Shown here: positions 894-42,000 of the stretch, piece by piece | Layout: every line of letters starts with the position of its first letter | How positions within the stretch are numbered: position 1 is the first letter of the stretch | Assembly (NCBI RefSeq): GCF_000003815.2 | Contig: NC_049979.1 | Coordinates: 27,246,203 to 27,310,202 of the forward strand | DNA length: 64,000 bases | Origin: Branchiostoma floridae | Lineage: Eukaryota > Chordata > Leptocardii > Amphioxiformes > Branchiostomatidae | Direction: 5' to 3' | Made by a program: the position numbers and the translations under genes | The notes under the pieces: generated by a model | Database searches by the model: none | Told to the model about the DNA's origin: nothing | Seen by the model: the letters and a program-made list of their open reading frames with translations, nothing else

Positions 894-894
894 A

Positions 895-3062: not shown

Positions 3063-3315
3063 ATAAAGGGCTAAGTTAAAAGTATAATGAATGCTTCTTC
3101 GTCCTCACAGTCCGAGGTTCGGCCGCTTTACTTTTTACCGTACTATACAATGTTGTACATAACGCTTAATGCCGCGACACACGCAAACAACGGTTTCCAT
3201 CTATCTCGCGATCTTGCTGTTTTGATTTCGAGAACTACTTTTTATCTGTTGCAATAGTTTTTTTCGCTTACGTTTAGATGAGATTTATATATTCTCTTTC
3301 CGAAAGTCAGGAATC
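3063..3315. other. Spacer between satellite and LINE tail
   Basis: The satellite decays by about 3060. No element boundary, gene or target-site duplication is visible before the zinc-finger frame. Confidence 0.5.
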
Positions 3316-3483
3316 ATGGCCTTTGAATCGAAAAGAGCTGCTGCCATACATGAGAAGAAGGAGAGGAGGAAACAGGGCTCTGTGCCTGTAAGCTCGAGCT
3401 CCTTCATCTGCAGCACCTGCGGCCGCTCCTGCGCCTCCAGAATAGGACTTCACTCCCACATGAGGAGACACCTGGACAAGTGA
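3316..3483 (+). mobile_element. Non-LTR retrotransposon 3' end (C2H2-like C-terminus)
   Basis: A 55-codon frame runs from ATG 3316 to TGA 3481-3483. It has a basic stretch (EKKERRKQ) and then FICSTCGRSCASRIGLHSHM and RRH. The C-x2-C ... SRIGLHSHxRxH pattern is the usual last ~25 residues of many invertebrate LINE ORF2 proteins (endonuclease-reverse transcriptase), lying just before the stop. No reverse transcriptase is found upstream, so this is most likely a 5'-truncated copy of which only the tail survives. A free-standing small zinc-finger gene is possible but less likely. Confidence 0.7.
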
Positions 3484-3499
3484 CTGGCTGCCTGCCTAC

Positions 3500-6730: not shown

Positions 6731-6904
6731 CACGCGAAAGAAGACAACGACGCCAAAAGGGATCGATGGATGCGAACTGGCGAGAAAAACGATTTACACC
6801 AAATACCGAGGGACAGGAAACAAATAAGATATACAATACGAGTGTGAGGTCTATCTTTCTTCTGAGTTCTTGATTTCGGTAAAGCGATTCCTCGCGCTTG
6901 CATG
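6731..6904. repeat. Purine-rich junction module, empty-site copy
   Basis: The module around CTCGCAGATTCTGTCTTTTTCGCCGAGAG (begins near 6673) continues to a direct join with satellite array B. The same module lies on both sides of the composite insertion at 11361-15618, so this is the uninterrupted (empty-site) version. Confidence 0.8.
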
Positions 6905-23444: not shown

Positions 23445-26400
23445 CTACAGTAAGTCAGGTGTAGACCCCCCTAGATAAGTCCTGAGGTCCTGTACTGTGG
23501 ACCTGATGAGTTTGCAGGGAATGGTCGCCTCCTGAAGTCTCTGGAATGCAGCGTAGCGGTGACAGCCTCCAAACGAGTAGTAATAATTCCCTCCCTGTCT
23601 GCCGGTAATCCAGAGGACATCGATGGGCGGGATCGTCTGTCTCTGCGCCGGGTCCTGGGGAATACAGAGGAACAGTTTTAGATTAAGAGGGAGGAAAATA
23701 ATAATAATCTGGTGTATTTTGCCAGCCAGTAGGTACCCAAAGTATGAGTAATGAGGCTGTTTAACGTGGTCGAGGCACCTCCTTGAGCACGGGACCCCCA
23801 TTTTACGTCCCTCCCGGAAGACGATTTCGTGGAAAACTTCGTGAGGCTACAGCAATCCGGACGTCCTTGGTTGGTCCCCCATCCAAGAACTGTCCGGACC
23901 GCGCGTTGCTTAACTTCCGAGATCGAGGGATCGGGTGTACCAACGCGCCACGTGGCCGTAGCAAATAAGGACGAAATTTTAAAAAACAGGTGCAGCTACT
24001 GTAATGCTAGTTCACCTTTATCGGTAGGGTAACCCGTTTTCAAATCTGTTGTATTCGGAAATGGCATTTAGGGATATCAACTTGACTGACAGCGGTTTCA
24101 AGCTGCAATGTTTTGGAAGTTTTGAAAATATCACAGTTTGAAACACCATCCAATGACTAGATATCCTGGCCTAAATACCGTTTTTGAAAACAAGGGAAAT
24201 AGGTCGCACCCTGCGGATAAAGTTGAAGTAAAGAATACCGTTGAAGTAAAGAATACCTGATGTTTTCAAAGGGATTCGCAGTCAAAAACTGTAGAACTGC
24301 ACACTCTGCTGTGGGTAAGTCAGCCCTGTTCTATCAGAGGGATACAACCCTCAAAATAAAGTTCAGTTGATCGGTAGTTTACATCTGTATCTGTATCTAT
24401 ATAGCCAGTTTAACCGCCCTCTGGCGTAACACACCAGCTTCTGTATCTGTATCTATATAGCCGGTATAACCGCCCTTCAGCGTAACACACCAGCTTCTGT
24501 ATCTGTATCTATATAGCCGGTATAACCGCCCTTCAGCGTAACACACCAGCTTCTGTATCTGTATCTATATAGCCGGTATAACCGCCCTTCGGCGTAACAC
24601 ACCAGCTTCTGTATCTATATAGCCGGTATAACCGCCCTTCGGCGTAACACACCAGCTTCTGTATCTATATAGCCGGTATAATCGCCCTCCTGCGTAACAC
24701 ACCAGCTTCTGTATCTGTCTCTATATAGCCGGTATAACCGCCCTTCGGCGTAACACACCAGCTTCTGTATCTGTATCTATATAGCCGGTATAACCGCCCT
24801 CTGGCATAACACACCAGCTTCTGTATCTGTATCTACTAGTATATAGCCGGTATAACCGCCCTTCGGCGTAACACACCAGGCACGTGGGGCAGCAGCAGCT
24901 GGTTATATTACATCGAACGACCCGTCACACCTTAACTTTTGCACATCTATCTACAAGCGTTCTTTAAAAGTATCCAGAAAAGATGCCCCTACTGTGCTTG
25001 GTGATAACAAATTCCACTTTACATGTTTGTCATGAGGCCAAATTCAGCAACACACATAGAAAAAAGCCATTAAGTCTTCTTCCGCTAAAGCGTGATAGGA
25101 ACATCTGCAACTTGTATTGGCCTGTGTAACTTCCTGCCTCTGCCCACTCTAGTGATTGTACACTGTGCCCACACACTGGTCTATGTTTAGAATCCTGTGG
25201 TCCTGTGGTTTACTGAGAAGGACTCACAAAAGTACATATTCATGAGAAAATAACCTTATGACTTTAACCAAAGTTTGACACCACTGTCCTTTTGATTTCC
25301 CTACTAATACCCTGTTCTTAAATACAGCAGATATAGTTTTAACCCACAGATAAAGGTGAACAAGCATTACAATAACAATAAAAATCACAACAACCACTTA
25401 TCATTATTTTCATTAGCCAAAGAAGTCAAACCCCCAAGTAAAGTTAGTAATGTAAATAGAAACCGTCAGAAAGTTGTATCTATTACAGGGCTCTAGCCAG
25501 CTCGACATTTTTTTCCGCCAGCCAATTCCCATTGTCGCGAAAACACTATTCCAGGAGTTAGAGAGACTGAACTGAGACCTTGAAAAACGGGTTTTAATGA
25601 GATTATCGTATGCGAAAGGGCACCGACACACATTGTCAACAATCATAACAATAGCAAAACAGTGTGTGGTTTTTACGGTCGTGGACGGCGTCCCCAAGCC
25701 GCCTGTAGCTTCCACCAAGGAGCTATTATCAGATTTTTGTCTGTCAAAGTTGACGGATTGGTTTTAAAATTTTTCCGTCACACGCAGCAAATTTCCGTCA
25801 ATTGACGGAAAAACAGACGCTGGCTAGAGCCCTGATCTATTACACCCTAACTGTGTTTCCTCTGCTACAGACCAATCCCACAGCCCTACAGACTACATCA
25901 AAATATAGAAATTGCTCAAATAAGGGGCATAACGACACTCTGTCTCATTGATTGAACTGCTAATTGCCATGCTACCATTGGTTGAACTGCTTATTGTGAT
26001 TGACAGTCATGATCAGTCTATTAGCCTGCATGAGTACAGGTAAAGGTTAATGGCCTAACCTTGATGGCCTCCATGAGGGACTGTACTTTATCCTGGTTGA
26101 GTACGGGAGGGATGGGTCTGATCAGCACGTGTATCGGAACCTCGTGGACCTCCCCGATGTGCGCCGTCTGGACCGTCATGTCGTCCTGAAGCTCAATGCC
26201 GACAGATGGTGGCGGCTTGCTCTCTCCTGATTGGACATCGGACTTAGGTTATACTCACTCAATCAATATTAGTGATCACATATGATTTGTACAATGGAGA
26301 TCATCTCCAAGCAGACGTAGGAAGGCAAAATTGTAATGTTTCTCAAGCTCCCAGTTCCATGAAAATATTAGCCCTTTCACAGAGATCATATTGCATGTGT

Positions 26401-26839
26401 GCGGAATTCTAGGTAACATGTCAAAGGTAAAGGCCTCGAAAAAGAAAACAGTTGTCGTTTTGCGGGCCTAAATTACCTTTGTATTATTACCTAGAATTCC
26501 TGTCGCCACACATGTGTTCTGATCTCTTTGAAAGTGTTTATCACATCGACAGATTTCGCCCTTTCAACATCTGCTTGGAGATTACCATGGAAACACTTTA
26601 AGTACATTAATGATTATCCAAACACAATGATCACATATTAGCCTCTAGCCTATATAAACATCCAAGGTATTGAGATGGTTGTTGTTGTTGAGATGGCATA
26701 CTTCACACCTATACAAACATACACTGTCAGACTCAGACATAAACACTGTGAGGCTTGGCCGAAGCAAAACTTGGCTTATTATAGAAAAAATTTACAAACC
26801 TGTTTCCTCGTCCGATAAAGTCCTGACCATGATACTCAT
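23445..26839 (-). CDS. SRXN1: Sulfiredoxin
   Basis: Sulfiredoxin uses ATP to reduce cysteine sulfinic acid in over-oxidised 2-Cys peroxiredoxins. Three exons join in phase: 26839-26800, 26226-26060 and 23654-23445, giving 138 residues, close to the human length (137). Exon 2 ends with [20 protein letters not shown]. Exon 3 holds [11 protein letters not shown] and the active-site [10 protein letters not shown], with Cys100 as the catalytic cysteine, and ends [13 protein letters not shown] 26839 has A at -3. An upstream in-frame ATG at 27004 would add 55 residues rich in Arg and hydrophobics, conceivably a mitochondrial presequence. Intron 2 holds a SINE, a 56-bp minisatellite and a hAT MITE. 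It is divergent to NDUFAF8. Confidence 0.95.
23692..23965 (-). mobile_element. 5S-derived SINE, near full length
   Basis: The minus strand begins with a 5S-rRNA-like head at 23960-23865 (TACGGCC, CTCGGAAGTTAAGCAACGCG, TTCTTGGATGGGGGACC). It continues through GGACGTCCGGATTGCTGTAG and a central block GGGAGGGACGTAAAATGGGG, and ends in an ATT-type tail. The head supplies the internal polymerase III promoter. The central block resembles the Deu-type core. It lies in intron 2 of SRXN1 in the same orientation. Confidence 0.85.
24371..24885. repeat. 56-bp minisatellite in SRXN1 intron 2
   Basis: About nine units of CTTCTGTATCTGTATCTATA, TAGCCGGTATAACCGCCCTT and CGGCGTAACACACCAG. Some units lack one TGTATC hexamer (50 bp). 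Confidence 0.92.
25486..25834. mobile_element. hAT MITE with perfect 8-bp target duplication
   Basis: Termini CAGGGCTCTAGCCAGC and GCTGGCTAGAGCCCTG are flanked by ATCTATTA on both sides (25478-25485 and 25835-25842). CAGGG ends and 8-bp duplications define the hAT superfamily. At 349 bp with no transposase it is non-autonomous. The same element lies in opposite orientation at 49582-49922. Confidence 0.95.
26360..26545. mobile_element. Foldback element in SRXN1 intron 1
   Basis: Arms CACAGAGATCATATTGCATG..GGAATTCTAGGTAA and their inverted counterpart TTACCTAGAATTCC..GATCTCTTTGAAAG. A relative is at 28140-28385. Confidence 0.65.
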
Positions 26840-27301
26840 CCTGGCTGGTACGGTGGGAGTTCGGAGAAAAAACAGCGTGGTCTGCAGCAGTACAGCGTAC
26901 AAACTCACACACTTCCGCCGACTACTGGCCACGGGAAAGGCACATGGAGGGCGACGGTGGAAGGCACGAACAGACGTCCGGATCCAAAATAAAACCTGAC
27001 TCATTTTACGCACGACAGATTCCCTGAGTCATTCTGAGATTTCTCCGACTTTCGTGAAACCAGGAAGTTTCAGAACCTCTGACCTCGCGGGATTGACGTC
27101 ACCATGCAGCTGATGAATCCTGTTGCTTGCTCAAGAACCGCTAGATGTCGCTTTCGTCTGGTGTTGAATGTGCTGTTGTTTTTTCATGAACCGCTAGATG
27201 TCGCTTTAGTCTTGTTTGCGGCCTCTGTACCTTGTGCCAGGCGCTGCGTGGCGTGGATGTTTTGAGAGCAAACTTTCTACGAGAGCCAGTATCTGCAGAC
27301 A
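26840..27301. promoter_or_regulatory. Shared divergent promoter SRXN1 / NDUFAF8
   Basis: Only about 460 bp separate the start codons of the two divergent genes. The interval contains a full cAMP-response element TGACGTCA at 27094-27101 and a direct repeat GAACCGCTAGATGTCGCTTT near 27128 and 27187. No TATA box is evident. A bidirectional promoter is inferred from spacing. If SRXN1 starts at 27004 the core is under 300 bp. Confidence 0.6.
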
Positions 27302-29641
27302 ATGAGGGATTTGTCTCAGGTTCGGCGCAGGATTCGGCAGTTCTCCTACGCAATGAGTGAATGTTCACCTCAAGTGAGCCCCACACCTTTTACTAGTTTT
27401 AGTTTTATTGTTGAACGTTGTGGCTGGGAAGGGGGAGGGGGGCGTGTGTAAACTTGTTTTGGTGAAACGTTTGTTATGTAGGTCATGCATTTTGTATGTA
27501 GGTCATGAGCAAGGATTAGGTATAAAAGTAGGTGTAACGTTTTAAGACTATAAGCTCTAACGTCCAGGCAAAGCTCTAGTTTATGAACTACCACGGGACG
27601 GCGAAGTTTGAGCGCATAATTTTTGTACTCAGCAAAATTCCTGAGGGATAACCTTATAATGCATACTCAGTATTTGGATGCATATTTTATCTAGGAGTGC
27701 GTACTTAAATGGAGAAAATACGGTATGTCAACTCCCAGGAGAATATCAACTTTGACACGGACCAATGAGATGAAATGGTAGTGTATAAAAAGTGCCTCAC
27801 AGGCTACTCAGTCAGTTTATTTATTTATTTATTTATTGATCTTTAGGGTGTGTTCTGATCTCTTTGAACGTGTTTACCACATCCACAGATTTTGCCCTTT
27901 CTACATCTGCTTGGAGATAACCATGGAAATACTTACATTAATGATTATCCAAACACAATCATATAGCCTCCTGCCGGTACAAACATCAACAAGGTAATTA
28001 GGAGATGGCAGACTATTAGGTAATTAGGAGATGGCAGACATATTCTAGTGAATACTCAGTCAGTGTTTTATAATTTTATGTCTTTGTGTTTTTATGAGTT
28101 ATAATGTGTGGGCAACTGCTGCCTGAGACCTACCACATGCATAAAAGCCCTTTTACAGAGATCAGGATGCATGTGCAGCGACAGAAATTCTAGGTATATG
28201 TCAAAGGTAGAAAAGGCCTCGAACTTGAAAACAGTTCTTGTCTCGACCATTGTTTTGATTTGCATAACAATGTCCAGATGGGTTTTGTTTTTAATTTCGG
28301 GACCTAAAATATACCCTTTGACATATTGCATGTACCTTGAATTCCTGTCGCTGCAGGTGTTCTAATGGTTAAACGTCTGTGAAAGGTCATATTATATTGT
28401 TTACAATCTGAATCAAGTCAAGTGTTGTGTAACACTTGTGTTGTTTTTTCTATGTAGATTGCAGCTTATGGCAGATGTGTGGCTGTGAAGGAGAATATAA
28501 AGAAGGGCGATTGTGCCAAGGAGTTCCAGGCTATGAAAGACTGTGCACGCAAAGTGGTAAGGAAAGAAGTTACCTAAAATCTATGTGTGCCCAATGAAGA
28601 TAACAGTTTAAGTTACATCGATGATTATGTTAGACATCCAGGTAATGTGCCCGATTACAGTCACTCTAGCTGTCTAGCAAGTGGACAGACCTGTAAACGG
28701 TCAGATAAATTGATATCCTTCTGACCGTTTACAAATCTATTTCTTGAGTATAATTATAAATATTATTTCTATGTTTAAGAAAGAACCTTCCCATGTATGA
28801 CATCGATTTCAGGTTCTGTTCAGATGTTTTGTGGGATCAAAAAGGCATACAGACCCCTTCAGTGTTGAGTAGTTACACAGGAACTTATAGAAACCGTTGT
28901 AGCTAGTGCTTCTTGTGTATGGGAATATTGCAAGCAGAAGTTTGGACTTTTAAAGTTTTATTACTCCTAAGTCGTCAACTCCTATTCTTGAGCCATTAAT
29001 TATGTAAAAGTTACTACTAGGACTGTTCCAAGGAGCAGGAATGAATGTGTCAGTTAAAGGGGCATTCCACTCCAGAAGGGAGTATTGTTTTCCACTAGAT
29101 AATGTGGCAATGAATACATAATCAGCCGAATTTTATTGAATTCACCTTGGAATGAATTGCGTTATGTGTACAATAATGACACTCACTAAACCCATGCAGA
29201 CCCTACCCATGAATTCCCTATACGCATAGACACTGTGTTTATCGTACATATTTTCGGAATAAATGAGGTTCGCTGAGCACACCGAGAAGGCAAATTGCTC
29301 ATAAGATAGCAAAGAATACAAGAACAAGACGAGATTTCTTAGCAAACCTGAAATTAGTTTTGTAACCTTACCTAAAAGTTTTGCATTGTATTCAGCCATA
29401 GGATTAATTCAATTAGAGGGTACTTGGGGAGTTTAGTAGAAGACTGAATGCTTTTGAGGCATGTGGAGCAACTGGGTACTTTATCGTATAATGTAAAGTA
29501 GTATGCAGTTATCACTTCCTAAAATTAATATCTATCGGAAAATAACACTCCCGTGTGGAGTGGAATGCCCCTTTAAGTTTTCCTTCTGTTCAGTGTAGTT
29601 TGTGTCTTTCTCTCCCCTCACAGGTACAGAAGTCTCACTAG
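27302..29641 (+). CDS. NDUFAF8: Complex I assembly factor NDUFAF8 (first cistron)
   Basis: NDUFAF8 is a small twin-CX9C protein that partners NDUFAF5 in mitochondrial complex I assembly. Three exons join in phase 0: 27302-27373, 28458-28556 and 29624-29641, giving 62 residues (human 74). Exon 1 gives MRDLSQVRRRIRQFSYAMSE; the VRxR(I/L)RxF pattern matches the human protein. Cys22-Cys32 and Cys44-Cys54 form two CX9C pairs; IAAYGRCV and CAKEFQAMKDC are near-diagnostic. Splice sites are CAA|GTGAGC, GTAG|ATT, GTG|GTAAGG and CACAG|GTA. The last exon contributes only VQKSH and the TAG at 29639-29641. The NSUN4 ATG follows 11 nt later in the same exon, so the message is predicted to be bicistronic. 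Each exon is too short to show up as a long open frame. Confidence 0.93.
27850..27975. repeat. Dispersed repeat shared with SRXN1 intron 1
   Basis: A ~120-bp segment (TGTTCTGATCTCTTTGAACG, ACATCTGCTTGGAGATAACC, ATGATTATCCAAACACAAT) is a direct, diverged copy of about 26515-26635. A short TTTA run at 27818-27840 precedes it. Confidence 0.75.
28140..28385. mobile_element. Foldback element in NDUFAF8 intron 1
   Basis: Inverted arms around CAGCGACAGAAATTCTAGGT and GAATTCCTGTCGCTGCAGGT, related to 26360-26545. Its right end lies about 70 bp before exon 2 of NDUFAF8. Confidence 0.65.
29058..29572. mobile_element. TTAA-flanked MITE (515 bp)
   Basis: Termini AGGGGCATTCCACTCC and its complement, each bordered by TTAA (29054-29057 and 29573-29576). 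TTAA target sites occur in piggyBac and Kolobok elements; the TTAAAGGGG start leans to Kolobok. It is in NDUFAF8 intron 2 and ends about 50 bp before the shared NDUFAF8/NSUN4 exon. Confidence 0.85.
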
Positions 29642-29652
29642 CTTGAGTGGAA
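29642..29652 (+). promoter_or_regulatory. 11-nt intercistronic spacer NDUFAF8-NSUN4
   Basis: This is the only sequence between the NDUFAF8 TAG and the NSUN4 ATG. It includes an in-frame stop for the second frame, so NSUN4 cannot be made as a fusion. Translation of NSUN4 from the spliced mRNA would need reinitiation, leaky scanning past the first ATG, or a separate promoter in intron 2. Confidence 0.8.
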
Positions 29653-30921
29653 ATGGAGACAGTCCAGGGTCTGCTGTCCAGGCGGTACGCGCGCCTGGCC
29701 CTGCACCAGGTCCGCTACAAGAAGACGATCTACCGCAACCGGAAACCGCCTACCTGGGCGTCCCAGGTGGCGCTGGACATGTTTGACCAGTACTACACGC
29801 GCCAGTTTGGAACCCGCTGGTCATCCATCCGCCTGGCTCTCCTGTCCGAGCCCAAACACGCCGCCCTGGTCAACAACTTCGGCCACGATCCCGAGGCCGT
29901 GTGTGCTGACTTGGAGGCCCTCGGTGCTGTGGACGTCATGGACGGTCAGCAGGCACTCCGGCCAGCACGACGGGCAAAGAGGGGCGTCCGAGGGGCTGCT
30001 CACATCGCTACCGTCCAACCAGAAACTGTCGAAGACAGTTATGATGATGATAATGTACAAGGCCACGGGACTCGCGAAATTAGTCAGACTGGTGTCGAGA
30101 ACGGCAGAGACGAGGAAACTTCGCCCAGTCTTCCCGTCGCCGCCACCAACCTGAGACTGTACAGCATGGCGGACACGAGCAGGTTTCCCCCGGCGCAACC
30201 CGACGCCGACGGGATTCTCACGTACTATGCAATGGACGCTTCGTCAGTCCTCCCCGTGTTGGCGCTCAACTTGAACCCCGGTGACATCGTGCTAGACATG
30301 TGTGCCGGTCCCGGCGGCAAGACTCTCACTATTCTAAACATGTCGGTGTCGCTTTCGGGGATCATCGCTAACGAACCGAAGTCTAGTCGCCTCAAGCGTC
30401 TGAACCAGGTGTTACGGCTGTACCTCCAGCGTGGCTTGAGCGTCCAGAAGGGAGTGAAAGTCACCAGTTTTGATGGCTGCAGGTGGGGGAAGGTGTCCCC
30501 GAACTCTTTCGACAGAGTCCTGGTGGACGTACCGTGCACCACCGACCGCCACTCCCTCACGCACGACGAGAAGACCAACATCTTCCACGTGGCGCGGGCG
30601 CGCGAGCGTACTGAGTTAACGGACCTTCAGGTGAAGTTGTTGAGTTCGGCACTAGCGGCCGTGCGCCCAGGTGGTGAGGTTGTGTACTCCACCTGCACCA
30701 TGTCACAGATGCAGAACGAAGGCGTGGTCTACATGGCCATGGAGCACGCCAACCAGAACTCCAACATCCTGGCCGAGGTGGCCGACGTCTCCGGACTGGT
30801 CCAGTTCTTCCGAAACACTTTCACTTTCTCGGAGGGCTGCAGGATCGGCGCGCTGGTGCTGCCCAGCCTGCCCAACAACTGGGGACCGATGTACTTCTGT
30901 AGGCTCCGCAGGATTAACTAA
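29653..30921 (+). CDS. NSUN4: Mitochondrial rRNA m5C methyltransferase NSUN4 (second cistron)
   Basis: NSUN4 methylates a cytosine in mitochondrial small-subunit rRNA and, with MTERF4, helps monosome assembly. The 422-residue frame is in one exon (human 384). Residues 1-35 are Arg-rich and amphipathic, fitting a mitochondrial presequence. SAM motif I is DMCAGPGGKT from Asp215. Motif IV VLVDVPCTTDRHS has Cys295, and motif VI VVYSTCTMS has Cys348, the expected nucleophile. The C-terminus WGPMYFCRLRR is family-typical. ATG 29653 is chosen because an in-frame TGA sits at 29644-29646 and the context is strong (G at -3, G at +4). The coding part is GC-rich compared with its flanks. An insertion of about 40 residues near 105-150 is acidic and low-complexity. 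Confidence 0.96.
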   Translation: METVQGLLSRRYARLALHQVRYKKTIYRNRKPPTWASQVALDMFDQYYTRQFGTRWSSIRLALLSEPKHAALVNNFGHDPEAVCADLEALGAVDVMDGQQALRPARRAKRGVRGAAHIATVQPETVEDSYDDDNVQGHGTREISQTGVENGRDEETSPSLPVAATNLRLYSMADTSRFPPAQPDADGILTYYAMDASSVLPVLALNLNPGDIVLDMCAGPGGKTLTILNMSVSLSGIIANEPKSSRLKRLNQVLRLYLQRGLSVQKGVKVTSFDGCRWGKVSPNSFDRVLVDVPCTTDRHSLTHDEKTNIFHVARARERTELTDLQVKLLSSALAAVRPGGEVVYSTCTMSQMQNEGVVYMAMEHANQNSNILAEVADVSGLVQFFRNTFTFSEGCRIGALVLPSLPNNWGPMYFCRLRRIN

Positions 30922-31335
30922 TCTGTACTTCTGTAGGCTCCACAGGATTAACTAATCTGTAGACTCTGCAAGATTGGCTTATCTGTACTACTGTAGACTC
31001 CGCAGGATTAATTAATCTGTAGACCCTGCAGGATTAACTAATCTGTACTTCTGTAGGCTCTGCAGGATTAATTGATCTGTTCTCCTATAGACTGCAGGAT
31101 TAACAGATCAGGATTAACTAATCTGTACCTCTGTAGACTGCAGGATTAACTGATCTGTAGTTCTGTAGACTCCACAGGATTAACTGATCTGTAGTTCTGT
31201 AGGATTAACTGATCAGACTTCTGTAGACTCTGCAGGATTGACTAATCTGTACTTCCCTGACTGTGCATGATTAACTAAACTGTAGACTCTGCAGGATTAA
31301 CTGATCTGTACTTTTGTAGACTGAATTAACCGATC
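30886..31335. repeat. Minisatellite seeded by the NSUN4 stop codon
   Basis: About twelve units of ~34 bp, TACTTCTGTAGGCTCCRCAG followed by GATTAACTAATCTG. The first unit is the last codons of NSUN4 (YFCRLRRIN and TAA) itself. Later units lose length and frame. Confidence 0.9.
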
Positions 31336-32784
31336 TTAACTATATTGGTTCCAGTGTTACAATGCGGTTCGTATCGTCTCAAATGTGTTATGACACAATA
31401 GGCCAGTTAATACATCTTGCAGAAATCTTTCCATTTGGCATATATTGTCAATTAATGAGAACCATGCATGTATTGCCCTCTGCCAAGCTATGGTCAAACT
31501 GAAGGTTATAAAGGTGATGCTCTTTTGTTTAAAACAAAGCCAAGTGGTCACCTGTTTTGAGAGTTGTTTGAAGCTTTGGTGGAAAAATGAATTATGAAGC
31601 TTGTGCTAAAAACTAAAAAAAATGGATGTAAAAAGCTTCAATGCTTATCAATATTTAGCATTACATGGAAAAAGCTTAAGTATGCCTTCAAACTTTAAAC
31701 ATTAGGTCATCAAACACAATGATAAGTCATGATTTTAGGCCACTGATCAAGCATTTAGAAAATCGTTTGAGAGTTTAGGCAAAAATATTGATTCTTTCGT
31801 AAAGGGTAACAACATCTCAAATACAGAAAAAGGTTTGTTATGCTGCCTTGGGACAATGCAATCTGAGTAATGTTTACTTCTACATAGAATTTGAATTGCT
31901 TTGTAAATTATGAAACATAAGGTAAAGAGTGGCTGTTTTCCAACCAATTTGGATATTAGAACTTTGCTTGCTCTGAAAAGGATTGTATAAACTATAATCT
32001 GATAGGTTGCTGGGCAAGAAAATGCCCCCAAAAAGGCATTACAGTACCTGGATATCTAAGGTTTGTTGGCAAGACGTGATGATATGCAATAAATTAAACA
32101 ATTTTCTTTAATATCTTTGTCACTGCATAATTTTTTATACCCAACATTAGGCCACACTGATTTGATTGTATGGATGACATAGGAGTGCACAATTTTCGTT
32201 GAGGGACTATATATAGATCATCAGCATCTTACAATCATACCTCAAAGTTTTTGCTTAGCTGTCTTTTTGTCTGCACAATGTACATGTGTAAAGTAAGGTG
32301 AAATTTTTTAGATAATTGAACATGTTTCTGCAATATAGTCATTAACCATCAAACTATGAAGTCCCTCAAAATATGGAAAACAAGATCATTGGTACATACT
32401 ACATGGCTGTTATTTCAATTATAGTTACCCTAAACACAGACCCTACCTACTACCAAAAACTAATAGATTAATAGAAGTGTAAACTCATAATATTATACAG
32501 GGCATTAAGTGAAAATTCTGGTGCTTTGTGCATTTTTTAGGGTGACCCATGGTTGGTCTGTCACCTTGGGTGATATGGAATAAACAGAAATGTTTTGTTC
32601 TATCTATATTGACGATGGTAAAATCCTAATTTGCACCAATCCTACAGCATTGTCCATGGCAATGAACAGTACAATACAAGAATAACATTCGCTGCCACAC
32701 AAGACACATCTGTAAACTGGTTCTGTTCTGAGTTGCAAACATCTCTTAGCATTACACAAAGAAAACAGTGAAGAAAACAAACCA
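31336..32784. other. Intergenic between NSUN4 and TTC13-like
   Basis: AT-rich. A lone end of the Harbinger-like family (TTAGGCCACACTGATTTGAT at 32151) is present without a partner. AATAAA at 32088-32093 could be a distant NSUN4 poly(A) signal but is weak evidence. Confidence 0.5.
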
Positions 32785-33540
32785 TAGCCCTTTTTCATGA
32801 TTAAGAATTTCCAAAATGGACCTAATTATGTGATTTGGGAAAGTCTTGACACATTAGGTAGGAAGTGACAGAAGTACATATAGAGAAACTATTATAGGCT
32901 TTTTTCATGATTAAGAATTTCCAGAATGGACCTAAGTATTGGGAAAGTCTCTGACACATTAGGTAAGAAGTGACAGAAGTACATATAAAGAAACTATTAC
33001 AGTGGAAGCCGCTTAATTGCACACCCAATTTGCTAGCGAATTCCGTGCCATTATCCGGCGTGTGCGATAATGCGAAGTTACCCAGTTGGACCACACTGCC
33101 ACGGGATTTGGGGAACCCGTGCAATTGACCGAAGTGTGCGTTTATCGGACGTGCAATCAACTGGCTTCCACTGTATAGGCTTTTTTAATTAAGAATTTTC
33201 AGAATGGACCTAAGTATTGGGAAAGTCTTGACACATTAGGTAGGAAGTGACAGAAGTACATGTAAAGAAACTATCATGATAGGCTTTTTTCATGACTAAG
33301 AATTTCCAGAATGGATCTAAGAATTGAGAAAGTTTCTGACACATTAGGTAGGGAGTGATTGAAGTACATATAAAGAAACTATTATAGGCTTTTTTCATGA
33401 TTAAGAATTTCCAGAATGGACCTAAGCGTGGGAAACATTTCAGACACATTAGGTAGTGAGTGATTGAAGTACGTGTAAAGAAACTATTATAGGCTTTTTT
33501 CATGATTAAGAATTTCCAGAATGGACCTAAGCGTTGGGAA
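32785..33540. repeat. 105-bp repeats of the TTC13-like stop-codon end
   Basis: Six copies of a 105-bp unit (GGCTTTTTTCATGATTAAGA near 32790, 32897, 33180, 33283, 33388, 33493). On the minus strand each encodes a version of LPNVSETFPTLRSILEIL and NHEKSL plus TAA. The copy at 33493-33540 is the functional end of the gene; the other five lie in its 3' UTR. As 105 is 35 codons, all units stay in the same phase. Confidence 0.9.
33000..33173. mobile_element. Tc1/mariner (pogo/Tigger-like) MITE, TA duplication
   Basis: Ends CAGTGGAAGCCGCTTAATTG and CAATCAACTGGCTTCCACTG flanked by TA on both sides. The neighbouring 105-bp units show the empty site, so the insertion is later than the repeat expansion. 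Confidence 0.9.
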
Positions 33541-36500
33541 TGTTTCTGAGACGTTGGGTAGTGAGCGTAAGGGACTTGACTCCAGATGCTGTAGTGATGA
33601 TCCGACCCATTCGTCCAGCATGCCGATAAAATCCCGCGGCGTGGGCAGAAAGATGGCCTCCCAGTCCACCTGTAGCCCGGCGGGGATCGGTTGCTCGATT
33701 TGCAGATCCATCGCCAACAGGAGAGCGTGTAGCGAGAGAAGTCCGCACGCGGCCGACCCGCGGGAAAGAGGCATGAAGTTGTACCAGTAGTACGCTAACG
33801 TGGCCGACAGTTCGTACATGGTTCTCGTGTCGGGTTGCGGGCGCACTGCCTCCTCGCAGAGTCTCTCCCAGGCGTGCGCCATCTCTTGGTCGAACTGTTT
33901 CCACCTGGCGGGCGTACCGGGCGTACGGATGGAACACGTGTAGCCGTAACGAGTCTTCTTCTGGATGGTAAGACGGGTGCCCTCCATGATGCGGCCGGGC
34001 GCGGCCTGGCTGTGGCACGGCGTCGCCACGTAGAAGTCGTGGCTCCGGATGGCGTACAGGTCGTGCGGGGTCTGGGCCTCGTTGATCTGTTCTAACTGTG
34101 CAGGGGAGGGGTTACACTGGTCCTTCATCAGATCCTGTCGGGGGGAATAACAAACAGTACAGTACAGGTAACAAACAAATACACAAAACAAACAGTTCAC
34201 ACACAGGCTGGAACATCCCAGGCCTCCACACTACATGAAAATTATTTCCTGGCATATGCAAGTACATATATCTAACCTACTACATATACATGCATTGCTA
34301 TAAATAAGGACTTGTTACTCGACTTCCTCCTATACATATCATTGTACAAAGCTTTGTGACTTCTCTACTTCAAATGATTTTTTAAAAGATCTTTACACAT
34401 CAAATTGCATTATTATGAGTCTGAGACAGTACAAGAACTGTGAACTACAAACCCTCACATGCTGTAAGCATTTATGCTTTGATATTACATACTATGGAAC
34501 TGTAATGCTAAAATGTGATTCACATTATGTAAGTTCTTCACAATTTTAGGGAGATGTCTTGAATGCAATAATTGAAACACATCCTGATATGAATGCCTTA
34601 CTTACCTCAAAAGTCTTATCTTATCCACTAACTGCAGATGCCAGTGGGTATATAACTGTATGGTTCATCATTTAAGATTAATGAAATTGAATAACAAAAA
34701 CTAATGACAACTAACAAGAAACTGTACTTCACCTTCATAAGTGGGAATGCCTTTTTCCAGTAGGGGTAGTAGCGGACCACATGGCACTGCCCGAGGATCA
34801 TGGGAGTCTGCGAGCCGAAGCCCTCCGTGAAGGTCTCCTGGTTCAGGAGGTCCACCCACCACACGGGGTCGTTCGGTTCCGAGGCCTGACGCCACTTCAC
34901 CGCGATGTCGAACAGGTCCCGCCAGCCAAACACGTGGGAGGTGCGGCACCCGCTGCTGGCGCGACCGGTCACCATGATGCTTCCACTGGTGTCCTGAAAA
35001 CACGGGAACAAGTGGGGGGGGGGGTCAATCATTTTACCCTGGAGGAAAGGAAAACGTGATCTGGAACCAAGACGGGGGTGAAAGAGGGAAAACGGGGAGA
35101 GCTCTGCAGTCCCTTACTGAAGGTGAGAAGTTGATTTCCTTCTGTCAGAAATGGATTCTCAGGCCAACAAGTCCGATGTTGGCAGGCTCACCATTCAGGA
35201 ATATTTAAGATGACTCAGATGATGAAAAATGCATTTTCAAGGCGGAGCCTAGGGCTAAGAAGGCCAAAAAAGAAAGTGACGACAAGAGGAAGAAAGCTGC
35301 ATGTGCTGCATGAACAGACAATTGACAAGCACGATGGTAAAATTTGGCCCCAAAATTTCCAGACTTCTATGTGGGGATTTAGAACACGAATCATCTTCCA
35401 TCGAACAGAACGCTGGCGTGATCGAACAGAACGGGCGTTCTATTTGGGGTCATCCGAGGTCACCCGCAGGTTGTTACAGTAAACACGCAGCAAACACCCT
35501 CATTTTCTCGGGTGCCGTGCGTCAGAAGAAAAACTGACATTTTCACAAATATAAACCGTTATCTGGCAAGCTTAGTTTTGCAGCCGCTTAGTTTGGAACA
35601 TGTGACATGTAACAAAGCTGCTGGCGTCATTATTGGTGACCTTGAATGTTACAACACTTGTTTACGGCGGTATCAATTACTCTATGTCACTATCAGTGCG
35701 ACTCGACATAGGACCAAACATGGTATTTAAATCGCTTGCAAAACGCGTGCAAATCAACTCTTTCAGGACTTATATTGTCGACAACTAATATCTCCAGCTT
35801 TGTGTCTTAGGGATTTTTGGAACATGGAGGCAATTTTGAATTACGAGTCTTTGAGTGTGAAAACTTGAAAAAATGACGATTTTTCGACCTTATATTGGCT
35901 ATAGAAATAGTTTTAAGTAGAAGTTGAAAAATCCCTAAGACAGAAAGTTTGATCTTAATATCATTACCTATATGAAATAGAAGATTTGGATTTTCAGTCA
36001 AATTTAGGACCAATCTAAATATGGTATTTGCTTTTTTGGCCCACCGAACACCCTTTCTAAATCAACCAACTATGCACATTTCAGAAGACATTGAGACAAA
36101 ACTGTGTAGCACACGTACACGGTAAGACTTGACGTGTACACACTGCCAGTTTTCATTTAATCTCGACGAGGCACGTGCGAGAGGTTGTTTTTCAAACTAT
36201 CACGATATTTTAGAAGATGTTTCAGTCACCGTCAGCCCTCAGCGGGGACCGCGCGGGAGCCCCGGTAACCCGATACTCTGCGTTCGAATGGAAACTTTTC
36301 GGCCAAATTTGACCATCGTGAAGAAGGTATATTTTGGTGAGGCTTACAGTAACAGCTTCTTTTTCAAGCAACAAGAAGCCAGGATCATGCTTTACTTGTG
36401 GAGAAGAACATTGGAGGAGTACCTGTCCCAAGATTAGACATACAGCATGTGCAGCAGTTGGATTGGAATATTACCAGCAAGAAAGTTTAATTGATTGTGT

Positions 36501-39500
36501 TTTCAATTTCAGACTTTTTCCCCTCAGAGTGACTAAATCGTCAGGATGACTTCGTTTGTCACATCCCAGGAATTTCTTCTTTGAGGGACATTATGAAGTT
36601 GAAAGATTTTGAATTCGGAGAAGGAGATTGAGGTATCAGCGTCAGAGGAAGACTCAAGAGAAACACTGCTTTTTAGAAATGCTGGTGCTTCTGAGTTCAT
36701 TCTAGATTGGTTATAAATTACCATTTAATGCATTTACCACAATCCAGGGTTTTGCATAATAATGCTAGTGTGAAAGATAATCATGATTTTGTTTCCAATG
36801 CAGTTTCTCAACTCTTAAAACAAGGATGCGTGCAGGAAGTTGCCACGTGTCCTTTTGTATGCAATCCTCTTTCCGTAGCAACACTAGTCTAGTGTCCACA
36901 GTCACACTTGTGTCCACCCTAACACTTGTGCTGTGTTTCATTTTGTGTATGTGAGAGTATGAATGCATCGAGAGTGAGTGATGTGTAGGGATGACGCAGA
37001 AATTTGAGTCTTCTTTAAATTTCATATTCTATAATACATAATATATTTTATTACATATTTCATATATTTCCCACCCACCTGTTTCCTCATGACTCTCCAG
37101 ACTCGCTGAACCGTCTGCGCCATGTCCACCATGGCCAGGCCGAACCAGCGGTGCTGCTTCTTGTTCACCAGGAACCCCGGGGTGTCGTACTGCAGCCTGT
37201 CACCCAGGGGAAACGCTACCTGCACGGTGGGGCACAGAGAGAAGTCCTTAGCTTGAAAGTGTTGACAGAAATCATAATTGAAAAGTACTGTTATTGTAAC
37301 TGTGTTACAGTACAAAATTGGACTTATACCCAATTTTCCATCATCTAACTCCAGTCTTCACCATTGAGCCTGAGGGTTGTAGCCAGCACCCGTCCTTCCG
37401 TCCTTTGACGGAATTTTGCAGCTAGGGACAGCTAGAATTGGCCCAATCCATCCTCTGTGAGCAAAATTAAACCCTCAAAATGCAGGAGATAGCGTTTCTG
37501 AGGGTCTAGATTTCAAAATTTTCCTTGCGAGCATGCCCCCGGACCTCCCTCAGGGAACGCTGCGCCAAAGCCATTCAAAATCGAGGGGACGGAAAATGAT
37601 TTCTGGCTGGCTACAACCCTGGTATGAGCATCAATTTCTTCTGTGATGTCATGTTATGCAGGTAGAACACATTTTCGGTGAGCAGTGGATCATTTAAGTA
37701 TGTGATGTGACAGAAAGAGGTGGATTGCTCATTCCTTAAATGACGAAGAAGTGTGCAGTCAAAAATTGAGAAAAGTGTTGGTAATTGCAAGGAATTCTAT
37801 GACACAAGTAGGATGATCCATTTTCCAATACATAAAGAATGTATGTACTCAATTCGCAGCAGCTCTGTACAGTTAGCAGTATGGTTTTGGAAATGATCGA
37901 CAATTGATTCATACAGATGTCATCCACATAATCGAATCAACATGGCCTATTAGAACAAAGACCAAAAAGAAGCATATCATGATAACTTTTACTAAAAGGA
38001 TAACCATGTCTAAGTAATTTCTAAGTCTTCTGGTTCAAACCTTTGCAATGTCTCTTGCAGCAGTACTAAGCATTGCATCCTGGTCCACGTCGGCTATATC
38101 TGGACTGAAGTCAGCCTGCTTGCAATAGTCGAAGGTCAGATGGGTTGGGTCCAGTCTCTTGGTCCACGCCTCCTTGAAGCACTCGTGTAACTCAATGTCT
38201 GCGTTGTAGTCCTTTAAGGGCATGTCCAGGTGGTGGTGCTGGAAGAGACACAGTTCTCGGGTGTAGAACGCCCAGTGGGCAGGGTTCATGCCATTCAGAT
38301 GGGTAAAACTCTCCACAGCCTTGCGGAACAGCCCGAGGGCTTGCGCACTGATGCCGTGCATGTACAGACAGTCTTCGTTGTGCGGGGCGACCTCCAGAAG
38401 CTTGCAGTGGGTTTCGTAGCTGCAGCGAATCTCCCCCGCGCCGTACAGACACAGGCCGTGTAGGTTCAGCGTCGTCACGCAGCGCGGATCCAGTCGTAAG
38501 GCCCGAGCGAACAGCTCATCCGCCTTCTCGAAGTTTCCGTAATCCTTATACGCCTGAGCCATGTTTACGATGGATTCGCGGAAATCCGGGTCAAGGTTTA
38601 GCGCCCGTTGGTAGGTGACCACGGCATCCATACAGTACCCAAGACTGTTCTGACAGAGGCCCATGGCATTCCACAATGTCTTAGCCTGAGACTTGTCCAG
38701 CTCTCCTTGTTTTTGCTTCACCAGGAGAACCTTGTCGGCTCTCTTGAAGTGCATGAGTGCGGAAACGTTGTCACCTTTTGCCTGATAGATGAGTCCGACC
38801 TCCTTCTGTATGTCCACGTCCACCACCTTACAAATGGACTGGGCTCGGTTTAGATCCTCGATCGCTTGGCCCTCCTGGCCGAGGGCTGCCCGGACTTGGC
38901 CGCGCCGTTTCCAGATCTCCGTCTCCTTCGGTTCCAGTGTGAGAGCCTGCGTAAAATCTGCCTCTGCCTTCAGAAGCTGTCTGGTCATGGCGTAAGCCGT
39001 CCCCCTCCCGACGTACGCCTTGTACGTCATGGGGTGCAGCTGGAGGATGGTGTTGAACAGCTTGATTGCTTCTTCGTAGTTCCCTTCGTTCACAAGTAGG
39101 AAACCCCGTCCCACCTTGAACTCCGGGCTGCGGGGGTCAAGAAAGCCTCCTGTTGTTTTCGTGCTGTCCTGACCTTCAGCTGTCCCTACTGCTGCTTTGG
39201 TGCTATCCTGACTCTCAGCTGTCCCTACTGTTGTTTTGTTGCTGTCCTGACTCTCTGCTGTTCCACCTGCTGTTTTGTCATTGCCCTGACCTTCTGCTGT
39301 CCCTTCGGTTGTTTTCTCGCTGTCCCCACGGTCTGCTGTCCCTTGCTGCAGGTTTGGGGGCGTCGTTGACCTCCCATAATCTGCATGGTCTCCATTCACC
39401 TGGACACAAAATATATGTGGACATACAGCCTTGTCAGTATCTGCATCTGAGTCTGTGTTTGTTATGTAGCAGGTTAATAATAACTGCCCCTTGGCATGAC

Positions 39501-42000
39501 ACTCCTAACACCCACAAATCTGAAAATTCAGCATGTATAATTCTATATTCTGTATCTTTATCTTTATATATTCTGTATCTTTATCTTTGATATGTTACAG
39601 CCTGTAAAGCTGAAATGAGGGCCATCATCCCCCTTTTCTGTAGATATGCCTATTTTGATTTCCCATAATTCATAGGGATAGCCATTTTACATGATATAAT
39701 TTGGATCAAGGCGAACAAATGTGGCATTATTGCCATGCTTAATTTAGTGTCATATGCAGGGGAGTTCTTCTGAATACAACAAAAAATGTTGTTGTAAGCC
39801 CCCATGCAGACCCTCTGAACCATCACCTTTACCTTGTTGGTTTGTTGACTCGGAGTAGGGCCTGACTTGTCCTCCTCCAAACACTGGATACAGCCCAGGA
39901 TCTCGGACAACACCTGGAAGTCTCCGTACCTGCCCAGGGCCGACTCCCAAACCTGCCGCGCCTGGTCAGGCTTCTTCAGTCTGTGGAGAGCCTTACCTGT
40001 GGGAGATAGAACACTTACTGTCTCACCTGTGGGAGATAGAACACTTACAGTCTCACCTGTGGGAGATAGAACACTTACTGTCTCACCTGTGGGAGATAGA
40101 ACACTTACAGTCTCACCTGTGGGAGATAGAACACTTACTGTCTCACCTGTGGGAGATAGAACACTTACTGTCTCACCTGTGAGAGATAGAACACTTACTG
40201 TCTCACCTGTGAGAGATAGAACACTTACTGTCTCACCTGTGGGAGATAGAACACTTACTGTCTCACCTGTGGGAGATAGAACACTTACTGTCTCACCTGT
40301 GAGAGATAGAACACTTACTGTCTCACCTGTGGGAGATAGAACACTTACTGTCTCACCTGTGGGAGATAGAACACTTACTGTCTCACATAGTAGGAGATAG
40401 AACACTTACTGTCTCACCTGTAGGAGATAGAACACTTACTGTCTCACCTGTTGGAGATAGAACACTTATTGTTTCACCTGTGGGAGATAGAACACTTACT
40501 GTCTCACCTGTGGGAGATAGAACACTTACTGTCTCACATAGTAGGAGATAGAACACTTACTGTCTCACCTGTGGGAGCTAGAACACTTACTGTCTCACCT
40601 GGTGGGAGATAGAACACTTACTGTCTCACCTGTGGGAGATTGAACACTTACTGTCTCACCTGTGGGAGATAGAACACTTGCTGCCTCATCTGCGGGAGAT
40701 AGAACACTTACTGTCTCACCTGTGGGAGATAGAACACTTGCTGCCTCATCTGCGGGAGATAGAACACTTACTGTCTCACCTGTGGGAGATAGAACACTTA
40801 CTGTCTCACCTGCGGGAGATAGAACACTTATTGTTTCACCTGTGGGAGATAGAACACTTACTGTCTCACCTGCGGGAGATAGAACACTTACTGTCTCACC
40901 TGTGGGAGATAGAACAATTACTGTCTCACCTGCGGGAGATAGAACACTTACTGTCTCACCTGGTGGGAGATAGAACACTTACTGTCTCACCTGTGGGAGA
41001 TAGAACACTTACTGTCTCACCTGTGGGAGATAGAACACTTACTGTCTCACCTGTAGGAGATAGAACACTTACTGTCTCACCTGTGGGAGATAGAACACTT
41101 ACTGTCTCACCTGTGGGAGATAGAACACTTACTGTCTCACCTGGTGGGAGTTAGAACACCTCATCTGGTGAGAAATAGAACACTGTCTCACATAGTGGGA
41201 GATACACATGTAGAACACTTACTGTCTTACCTGACGGAGATAGAACACTTACTGTCTTACTAGGTGGGACACAGAACACTTACGAAGAAAGGCAATTCGC
41301 TAATCTTTGATTTTTTTTCTAAAAAAAAAAACTGTTGATCTAACTTGCTTATGTAAGCAATACTCAGGGCTTATTTGCATTAGTCTTGCTAATCTATTCC
41401 CAACAGAGATATTAACTAATTCACAGTAATAACATTTGCATACCAATTAAGTCATATTAATATCCTCCTTCAATCAGTAGACCAATGACGTATTGGGAAT
41501 CTAGGATAGGAGAAATGTATAGTTTCACATTTTTCAGTCACTGTTTGTGTGCAGCCGTTTAGCCACCATAAAACTGGTAATATGTTACTTCCGGGTTGTG
41601 TGGCACCGAACTGAACATAGCAGCGGCCCACTATCGTTTCATACTATCTCTCGCGAAGTCAAAACCTTCTGGAGTAGAGCTACAAATGTAATCACACAGT
41701 ATCAAAGGTTTTTCAAAGGTTGTAGCGAAACGCACGCCCACCTTTATACAGGTACGCCTGCAGTGAGGCGGCGTCCGCTTTGATGGCGGAGTCACAACTG
41801 GAGACAACTTTTCGCAGGAGTCCCAGCTTTAGATAGCAGGAGGCCAGGTTGCAGTGGACAGCGGCGATCTCCCTGGGTTCCAGGGAGCGTCCCTTGTCTT
41901 TCAGCACCTGTGACAGGAGCTTGATGGCGTCGTTGTACCGTCCCTGGATGTAGTGTCGCTGGCTGCTGACCAGGACGTCCGGCAAGACAAGGTCCGCCAT
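33487..42000 (-). CDS. TTC13: TTC13/SRFR1-like tetratricopeptide repeat protein
   Basis: Six exons join in phase: 42000-41742, 39996-39833, 39399-38041, 37219-37079, 34993-34733 and 34134-33487, giving 943 residues. Exons 1-2 hold an N-terminal TPR pair (YIQGRYNDAIKLLSQVL; SLQAYLYKGKALHRLKKPD) that resembles plant SRFR1. Exon 3 has a Thr/Ser/Gln 13-residue repeat linker and then about eight TPRs (NEGNYEEAIKLFNTILQLHP onward). The C-terminal part with GFLVNKKQHRWFGLAMVDMA, YYWYNFMPLSRGSA and SETFPTLRSILEIL matches TTC13. No signal peptide is seen at this start, unlike vertebrate TTC13, so it may be the SRFR1-like paralogue. Cellular role is poorly known; TPRs imply a scaffold. The symbol is the nearest family name. 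Confidence 0.88.
35147..36890 (+). mobile_element. Decayed DIRS-like (tyrosine-recombinase) retroelement fragment
   Basis: A gag-like start (MDSQANKSDVGRLTIQEYL near 35151, then a basic KKAKKESDDKRKKAA) is followed by a zinc-knuckle-like CFTCGEEHWRSTC near 36400. At about 36760-36890 comes NNASVKDNHDFVSNAVSQLL and KQGCVQEV...PFVCNPLSV, the typical lead-in of DIRS/Ngaro reverse transcriptases. Frameshifts and stops separate the parts, and no palm motif or recombinase follows, so it is a dead 5' fragment in an intron of the TTC13-like gene. Confidence 0.6.
37372..37621. mobile_element. Old hAT-type MITE relative
   Basis: Inverted ends AGGGTTGTAGCCAGC and GCTGGCTACAACCCT with internal TTGACGGAA-type sequence related to 25486-25834. 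Target duplication is no longer clear. Confidence 0.6.
39997..41290. repeat. 30-bp minisatellite of a splice acceptor (TTC13-like intron 1)
   Basis: About 40 units of CTCACCTGTGGGAGATAGAA followed by CACTTACTGT. On the gene strand each unit reads TTCTATCTCCCACAG|GTGAG, a copy of the true exon 2 acceptor (CTCCCACAG|GTAAG at 39996/39997), and then ACAGTAAGTG, a donor-like site. The array starts exactly at the exon. Confidence 0.93.

Follow-up and report, generated by a model that had tools for sequence, protein, structure and literature searches.

In the lancelet Branchiostoma floridae, NDUFAF8 (also named C17orf89) and NSUN4 very probably lie on one shared mRNA, judging from their arrangement in the 64,000 nucleotides of contig NC_049979.1 analysed here (the window). 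The last exon of NDUFAF8, which encodes a small complex I assembly factor, also contains the complete frame of NSUN4, an enzyme that modifies the mitochondrial ribosome. In human, the two genes are on chromosomes 17 (NDUFAF8) and 1 (NSUN4). A normally spliced NDUFAF8 mRNA should carry NSUN4, because exon 3 is truly the last exon, its acceptor is strong, and no poly(A) hexamer occurs before the NSUN4 stop.

The NDUFAF8 gene

The genes and their sites are on the plus strand. The coding part of NDUFAF8 exon 1 (27302..27373; 72 nt, 24 codons) was defined by the spliced frame and the genome match, and ends at a phase 0 donor (CAA/GTGAGC). Exon 2 (28458..28556; 99 nt, 33 codons), taken from the spliced frame, holds the second Cx9C motif. 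The coding sequence finishes in exon 3 (29624..29641) with VQKSH and a stop, as given by the spliced frame and the human alignment. Both introns have GT-AG junctions. The spliced frame is translated as MRDLSQVRRRIRQFSYAMSECSPQIAAYGRCVAVKENIKKGDCAKEFQAMKDCARKVVQKSH, with 62 amino acids, and its TAG ends at 29641.

The protein presents the twin Cx9C motif, with cysteines at positions 21, 31, 43, and 53. It matches the Pfam family CX9C (PF16860) with an E-value of 8.1e-6 and 26.1 bits, slightly below the cut-off of 26.4. The identity with human NDUFAF8 is 37% over 60 alignment columns, using a human sequence whose length and six aromatic positions match PMC7042492. As an NDUFAF8, the protein would be expected to associate with NDUFAF5. 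Phe55 of the human protein was named as invariant to zebrafish (PMC7042492). The lancelet F47 aligns with it, between the second pair of cysteines. Among solved structures, the protein resembles other Cx9C proteins only weakly (best E 0.01).

The boundary between exons 2 and 3 is in phase 0, four residues past the last Cx9C cysteine. Human NDUFAF8 has three exons and 74 amino acids, and c.195+271 is intronic. Its intron 2 (c.195, after codon 65) has the same place and phase as the lancelet boundary, and the human sequence compared is consistent with PMC7042492. Lancelet exon 3 is thus the true, orthologous last exon of NDUFAF8.

The NSUN4 frame and its origin

The NSUN4 coding sequence (29653..30921) is complete, intronless, and 422 amino acids long, according to its translation and domain matches. 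It begins with the ATG at 29653, stops at 30919-30921, and has no internal stop. The RsmB/F-type domain PF01189 is recognized with an E-value of 8.3e-31. The best PDB match is human NSUN4 (E 1.6e-92), and the best chain with a different name reaches 9e-21. Likewise, the frame scores 285 bits against NSUN4 and 161 against NSUN3. The PCT and STC cysteine motifs are both present, PCT at residue 294 and STCT at 346. A pattern search for the SAM-binding motif in the frame gave no match, and the sequence reads DMCAGPGGKT where human NSUN4 has DLCAAPGGKT.

The genome search found one full match for each gene. NSUN4 had three additional partial matches, on C2, which belong to one NSUN3/NSUN4-type gene that has introns. 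When three pieces were compared, NSUN3 gave the better score for two and NSUN4 for one. This gene is probably NSUN3, although the assignment is not firm. We rejected a retrocopy with a surviving parent, since the genome search contained no intron-bearing NSUN4 parent. NSUN4 is probably an old retrocopy that took the place of an NSUN4 gene with introns. Haplotype copies of either gene, sought for a selection test, were absent from the genome.

The shared exon and its splice sites

The gap between the two frames (29642..29652) measures 11 nt. Upstream of its ATG, the NSUN4 frame is first closed by a TGA within this gap (29644). The sequence-only reading had proposed a shared exon with this gap, and re-translation of the frames confirmed it to the base. 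The same reading held that the stop at 29644 rules out a fusion protein. This is correct for the acceptor at 29624 only. It fails for a weaker acceptor, whose first exonic base is 29710 and which would fuse exon 1 or 2 of NDUFAF8 in frame with NSUN4, starting at residue 20.

We scored splice sites with generic, hand-entered weight matrices. The exon 3 acceptor (29609..29624; TCTCTCCCCTCACAG/G) reaches 12.94 bits and ranks third among the 4293 AGs of the plus strand; of the 3605 on the minus strand, 6 reach this score. The exon 2 acceptor is ordinary (7.79 bits, rank 91 of 4293). So are the two NDUFAF8 donors (8.04 and 8.93 bits), which 93 and 62 of the 3669 GT sites equal or exceed. The acceptor at 29710 has 7.03 bits (rank 142 of 4293). 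Splicing to 29594, a candidate alternative acceptor with 9.59 bits (rank 30), would preserve the frame, give the tail CSLCLSLPSQVQKSH, and include the same NSUN4 exon. No YNYURAY branch point was matched in 29564-29609. Within the NSUN4 frame, donor-like sites at 30482 (9.81 bits) and 30673 (8.92 bits) match the NDUFAF8 donors in score, and a spliced form of exon 3 that uses them is conceivable.

According to the portion of PMC3951408 used here, nonsense-mediated decay (NMD) is triggered when an exon junction lies over 55 nt past the stop. Judged over the frames to 30921, the NSUN4 frame is unbroken in the exon that holds the NDUFAF8 stop. The bicistronic mRNA should therefore escape NMD, since no exon junction lies downstream of that stop as far as the frames show.

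Poly(A) signals

None of 13 poly(A) hexamers occurs in 29624-30921, from the exon 3 acceptor to the NSUN4 stop. This absence is at chance level: 61% of synonymous shuffles and 18% of base shuffles also have none. It was rejected as a positive signal because it is not significant against the shuffles. Being expected by chance, it permits read-through into NSUN4 and does not prove it. Past the NSUN4 stop, the first AATAAA (32088..32093) is a candidate common 3' end, and weaker variants appear from 31274. Intron 2 has 12 matches to the 13 hexamer types, including one AATAAA (29258) within a mobile element; an early end of NDUFAF8 with a different tail is therefore conceivable.

Taken together, the conserved intron position, the very strong acceptor, the lack of a hexamer before the end of NSUN4, and the single full genome matches lend the shared exon and bicistronic transcript predicted by the sequence-only reading more support than that reading had.

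Intron 2 and promoter signals

Intron 2 (28557..29623) has 1067 nt, or 544 without the MITE-like mobile element (29054..29576) that occupies half of it. The element has 48-nt terminal inverted repeats that are 88% complementary, and TTAA at both ends. The genome has 1018 candidate copies; among the best 40 scored, the 39 others are 94-97% identical.

The promoter contrast between the region upstream of NDUFAF8 and intron 2 favours the former but is weak. The CpG observed/expected ratio (o/e) is 0.95 upstream, compared with 0.42 in the long non-mobile part of the intron (497 nt). Values of at least 0.8 are present in 35% of 247 windows of 500 nt. The upstream region has one perfect CRE, of 11 in the 64 kb, and no match to the NRF1, ETS, YY1, Sp1, CCAAT, or TATA patterns. 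Outside the element, intron 2 has no match to CRE, NRF1, ETS, YY1, or Sp1, and presents one TATAWAW (28755) and one CCAAT (28591). Apart from the CRE, promoter patterns fail to distinguish the two regions and were dropped as a discriminator. The NSUN4 exon is CpG-rich (o/e 0.94). We also discarded the idea that this marks a promoter private to NSUN4: stretches of other long frames reach equally high values (in the 500-nt windows from 33251 to 33751 and from 38251 to 38501).

Translation of NSUN4

The NDUFAF8 start has the context CAGACA[ATG]A, with A at -3, and the NSUN4 start has GTGGAA[ATG]G. Both have a purine at -3; only NSUN4 has G at +4. Five AUGs lie between the two starts, three of them with a pyrimidine at -3. 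Counting the NDUFAF8 start, six precede NSUN4. Three are out of frame, against means of 1.48 and 1.86, and show no depletion. Leaky scanning is not favoured, because A stands at -3 of the NDUFAF8 AUG, another five AUGs follow, and those out of frame are not depleted. The earlier suggestion that a first frame of 62 codons permits reinitiation now looks weak. Classical 40S reinitiation works better at a greater distance from the stop, and 11 nt is short for it, according to the part of PMC11952965 consulted.

Favoured and rival explanations

As a whole, the explanation towards which we lean is a single transcription unit. The NDUFAF8 promoter would drive both genes. Exons 1, 2, and 3 would be spliced, exon 3 being the ancestral last exon of NDUFAF8, whose 3' UTR would have gained the intronless NSUN4. 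In the mature bicistronic mRNA, NDUFAF8 would be the main product, and NSUN4 would be needed in small amounts. NSUN4 might come from ribosomes that bypass the NDUFAF8 start or begin again past its stop, and its G-3/G+4 context would aid initiation. Shorter mRNAs starting downstream of the NDUFAF8 AUG probably also supply it. We give an even chance to NSUN4 being made mainly from the shared mRNA. It is doubtful that this mRNA is the sole source, with NSUN4 wholly tied to the promoter and translation of NDUFAF8 and the 29710 fusion as a possible third product.

The read-through mRNA might express only NDUFAF8, with NSUN4 made from separate mRNAs that start in intron 2 or near 29600. We consider such nested promoters unlikely, though NSUN4-only mRNAs that start in intron 2 or exon 1 are the chief rivals of the favoured view. 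They would avoid the six AUGs, which are costly to pass and not depleted when out of frame. The CpG richness of the NSUN4 exon and its strong start context point the same way, as do the TATAWAW and CCAAT of the intron. However, the non-mobile part of intron 2 is short and CpG-poor, and a high o/e need not mark a promoter, given the other long frames. The missing CRE, NRF1, ETS, YY1, and Sp1 matches have little weight, since the NDUFAF8 upstream region matched CRE alone. A different possibility, which we regard as quite improbable, keeps one promoter with scattered caps around 27302. The mRNAs that start past the NDUFAF8 AUG or skip exon 2 would then serve NSUN4. Exon 1 is short, the -3 pyrimidines at most intervening AUGs fit this idea, and skipping exon 2 keeps the frame (72 + 99 nt) and leaves a first frame of 29 codons. 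Nevertheless, AUGs of the NDUFAF8 frame with G at -3 persist at 27353 and, in mRNAs that retain exon 2, at 28533. This choice of start sites overlaps with the favoured explanation.

A fusion made through the acceptor at 29710 would replace the NSUN4 leader with NDUFAF8 sequence. Joining either exon 1 alone or exons 1 and 2 to 29710 gives a continuous reading frame that starts at the NDUFAF8 ATG and ends at the NSUN4 stop, and the score of this acceptor is near that of the exon 2 acceptor. Against this, a far stronger acceptor lies 86 nt upstream, chance alone would put a third of all sites in frame, and 142 of the 4293 AGs in the window reach at least this score. We find this fusion very improbable. 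A polycistronic pre-mRNA trans-spliced into two monocistronic mRNAs seems the most remote of all. Tunicates, fellow chordates, have many bicistronic operons of this kind with a spliced leader (PMC4122922, in the passages used), and a 2014 review lists tunicates, nematodes, and flatworms as having operons. On the other hand, 29642-29652 has neither a poly(A) hexamer nor an acceptor of at least 6 bits, and the strong acceptor sits upstream of the NDUFAF8 stop. A spliced leader is not known in lancelets, and the passages of the papers examined do not mention one.

Comparison with known systems

The arrangement resembles Sloth1/Sloth2 and MIURF-MIEF1, so mRNAs of this type are already known for other mitochondrial proteins. 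Sloth1 and Sloth2, from a bicistronic mRNA of Drosophila, correspond to human SMIM4 and C12orf73 (PMC9681215, in the parts used here, as for the next statements). Like the lancelet pair, they are two nuclear-coded mitochondrial OXPHOS assembly proteins (for complex III) with a short first frame. Their gap is 5 nt, compared with 11 nt in the lancelet. They are neighbours in several species and lie on separate chromosomes in jawed vertebrates. Lancelets are not named in the main text of that paper. The Sloth proteins are distant paralogues of similar size, whereas NDUFAF8 and NSUN4 are unrelated and the second has 422 amino acids. Reporter evidence indicates leaky scanning past a poor first Kozak in Sloth1/Sloth2; in contrast, the NDUFAF8 AUG has A at -3.

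Human pairs offer another parallel, and PYURF is itself mitochondrial. In MIURF-MIEF1, PYURF-PIGY, and STREMI-SLC35A4, a small protein is likewise coded upstream of a second one on one mRNA. STREMI is mitochondrial, and a title among the references states that the MIEF1 microprotein regulates mitochondrial translation (all from the portion of PMC13303939 used). In these pairs a gene already known carries the first frame within its 5' UTR, whereas in the lancelet a complete, conserved three-exon gene comes first and NSUN4 looks like the later arrival. Green-algal bicistronic loci also have two frames per transcript, and a reporter used the 14-nt inter-ORF of one locus. However, they have a weak first Kozak and few AUGs before ORF 2 (PMC11892635, sections used), unlike the lancelet pair, which lacks AUG depletion. 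In tunicate spliced-leader operons, neighbours are co-transcribed, as proposed here (PMC4122922, same passages). These operons yield spliced-leader monocistronic mRNAs, and no site for that exists between the two lancelet frames.

A literature search for NSUN4 together with NDUFAF8 returned no paper naming both. Searches combining amphioxus with bicistronic, dicistronic, or polycistronic, and NSUN4 with bicistronic, gave no title on this pair among the matches listed.

Significance

The pair would be a testable case of how such an arrangement could originate, by insertion of an intronless gene behind the stop of its host. The lack of introns in NSUN4 would keep the mRNA safe from NMD. For annotation, pipelines that keep the longest frame per transcript would lose NDUFAF8 here. 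If transcripts confirm the arrangement, complex I assembly and mitoribosome maturation would be joined by a bicistronic mRNA that occurs naturally in a chordate, one in which a spliced leader is not known. If NSUN4 came solely from the shared mRNA, one transcript would tie the supply of a complex I assembly factor to that of a mitoribosome-modifying enzyme.

NDUFAF8 and NSUN4 frames

The window spans 27246203-27310202 of contig C1. The NDUFAF8 frame lies on its plus strand. It has 62 codons over three exons (27302-27373, 28458-28556 and 29624-29641) and ends in TAG. The NSUN4 ATG follows 11 nt past this stop, and its frame runs for 422 codons to 30921 with no internal stops. Upstream, a TGA at 29644 closes it. 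Frame analysis recovered every element of the shared exon claimed in the sequence-only reading: both frames, the 11-nt gap and the stop at 29644. The arrangement is real and well formed.

The second protein matches PF01189 (Pfam). Its best solved structure in PDB is human NSUN4 (E 1.6e-92); chains under other names reach 9e-21 at best. By sequence it is NSUN4. The similarity extends to query residue 8, which supports the start at 29653. The first protein is a twin-Cx9C protein. Its Pfam CX9C match falls just below the cut-off, and its matches to solved structures are weak and to other Cx9C proteins. It shows 37% identity over 60 columns with a human NDUFAF8 sequence whose length (74) and six aromatic positions match those printed in PMC7042492. 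In the alignment, the lancelet protein has Phe at the position of disease residue Phe55, named in the same paper.

Exon 3 as the last exon of NDUFAF8

Human NDUFAF8 has a 225-bp CDS, three exons and an intronic variant, c.195+271 (PMC7042492). Since this variant is intronic, a phase 0 intron follows human codon 65, which lies four residues past the last Cx9C cysteine. Phase and distance are the same at the exon 2/3 boundary in the lancelet. Because both agree, the join from exon 2 to 29624 recreates an intron position that human also has. It is unlikely that the five codons VQKSH are there by chance, and exon 3 is, on this evidence, the true last exon.

The acceptor at 29624 scores 12.94 bits, rank 3 of 4293 AG sites on the plus strand; the minus strand holds 3605, of which 6 score this high. 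A second acceptor at 29594, 30 nt upstream (9.59 bits), keeps the frame and also leads into NSUN4. The branch-point pattern YNYURAY had no match in 29564-29609.

A predicted bicistronic mRNA

From the exon 3 acceptor to the NSUN4 end, none of 13 poly(A) hexamers was found, and the first AATAAA downstream is at 32088. After normal splicing, the NDUFAF8 mRNA therefore lacks an obvious end short of NSUN4. Such a hexamer-free stretch is not unusual in itself, being present in 61% of synonymous shuffles. With NSUN4 unbroken, no exon appears to follow the one that holds the NDUFAF8 stop, and the 55-nt rule of NMD should spare this mRNA (PMC3951408). We predict with good confidence the bicistronic transcript proposed earlier, as the plain reading of this anatomy. 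Two features count against it. The NDUFAF8 mRNA could end early, within intron 2 (28557-29623, 1067 nt), which holds 12 poly(A) hexamer matches, including one AATAAA. Splicing could also start inside NSUN4, where donor-like sites at 30482 (9.81 bits) and 30673 (8.92) match the NDUFAF8 donors in score (8.04 and 8.93). The similarity to human NSUN4 continues across both sites, so the mRNA that makes NSUN4 does not use these donors.

A rival to the promoter upstream of NDUFAF8 would be a private NSUN4 promoter in intron 2. A MITE-like mobile element (29054-29576) makes up half of this intron; its two ends, inverted over 48 nt, both carry TTAA. Without it, 544 nt remain, whose long part has a CpG o/e of 0.42. 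One TATA-like and one CCAAT word lie outside the element, and no CRE, NRF1, ETS, YY1 or Sp1 pattern was matched there. The region upstream of NDUFAF8 has a CpG o/e of 0.95 and a single perfect CRE, at 27094 (such a CRE is found in 0.8% of shuffles); the remaining patterns had no match there either. Across the 64 kb, 35% of 247 windows have CpG o/e of at least 0.8, and CREs total 11. The contrast between the two regions is thus suggestive only.

The element family has 1018 genome candidates. Among the best 40 scored, 39 other copies are 94-97% identical to this one, so the family is young, at least in part. The only AATAAA of intron 2 (29258) sits inside the element.

Translation of NSUN4

Six AUGs precede that of NSUN4, including the NDUFAF8 start, and three are out of frame. 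This compares with a mean of 1.48 when NDUFAF8's own codons are permuted, where 5.1% of 5000 shuffles give at least 3, and with 1.86 in uniform synonymous shuffles (26% reach 3). The NDUFAF8 start is flanked by A at both -3 and +4, that of NSUN4 by G at both. Leaky-scanning bicistrons of green algae are described with a weak first context and few AUGs (PMC11892635). Given the A at -3 and the three out-of-frame AUGs, these marks are absent or partial here.

Classical reinitiation is favoured by more distance (PMC11952965). The same paper describes a selected yeast strain with 80S-type reinitiation. Gaps of 0 to 65 bp worked, 11 among them; the process decreased with longer spacers and was lowered by extra stops in the gap. 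The lancelet gap is also 11 nt, with one TGA inside. The 80S-type route is not known to operate in animals. Leaky scanning, reinitiation and mRNAs starting past the first AUG, in some mix, may give a low NSUN4 output. This could be enough for an rRNA-modifying enzyme.

Origin of the intronless NSUN4

Human NSUN4 has several exons. Our search of the genome (513 Mb in 431 contigs) gave one full NSUN4 match, in the window. A related, intron-bearing gene on contig C2 is, by partial evidence, an NSUN3-type paralogue: of three pieces, two are nearer to NSUN3 and one to NSUN4. Retroposition into a 3' UTR would leave such a trace, a gene without introns past the stop of another, and may be how NSUN4 came here. 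Alternatively, NSUN4 may have lost its introns in place.

Directly behind NSUN4 lies a minisatellite (30896-31343), with unit spacings of 34, 60, 26 nt and others. Its units copy the NSUN4 stop region and the codons just before it, which suggests that the array arose from the coding end.

Neighbouring genes and repeats

A sulfiredoxin gene (23445-26245, minus strand) stands head to head with NDUFAF8. Two of its frames match PDB sulfiredoxin (E 2e-29 and 3.4e-7); Pfam gave nothing at 0.001. About 1.06 kb separates the end of the nearer frame from the NDUFAF8 ATG, so the two genes may share a promoter region. Just upstream of NDUFAF8 (27120-27215), a 43-nt direct repeat (86%, 53 nt apart) carries GAACCGCTAGATGTCGCTTT in both copies and could be a doubled regulatory site. 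Fragments of another repeat, direct and inverted, occur at 26303-26630, upstream of NDUFAF8, and at 27849-28360, in its intron 1.

Other minus-strand frames are a TPR-repeat frame (38038-39504, Pfam), a RhoGAP frame (55450-55839, PF00620, E 2.5e-21) and one at 33490-34230, perhaps TTC13-like by its look, with no Pfam match at 0.001. At 816-8817, also on the minus strand, degenerate-repeat stretches hold several frames open simultaneously. CpG o/e is mostly above 1 in 501-3000 and 6501-9000. By its look, 816-8817 is tandem-repeat DNA and not genes.

Relation to known two-protein mRNAs

The closest system in design and meaning is Drosophila Sloth1/Sloth2, with a 5-nt gap and a role in complex III assembly. 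These genes are linked in several species and on separate chromosomes in jawed vertebrates (PMC9681215). The human MIURF-MIEF1, PYURF-PIGY, ASDURF-ASNSD1 and STREMI-SLC35A4 mRNAs share the general kind (PMC13303939). No earlier description of the NDUFAF8-NSUN4 pair had been known; likewise, our literature search found no paper with both names, and none on the pair among the matches listed for bicistronic, dicistronic or polycistronic amphioxus mRNAs. Two-protein mRNAs are already known as a kind, and NDUFAF8-NSUN4 adds another case.
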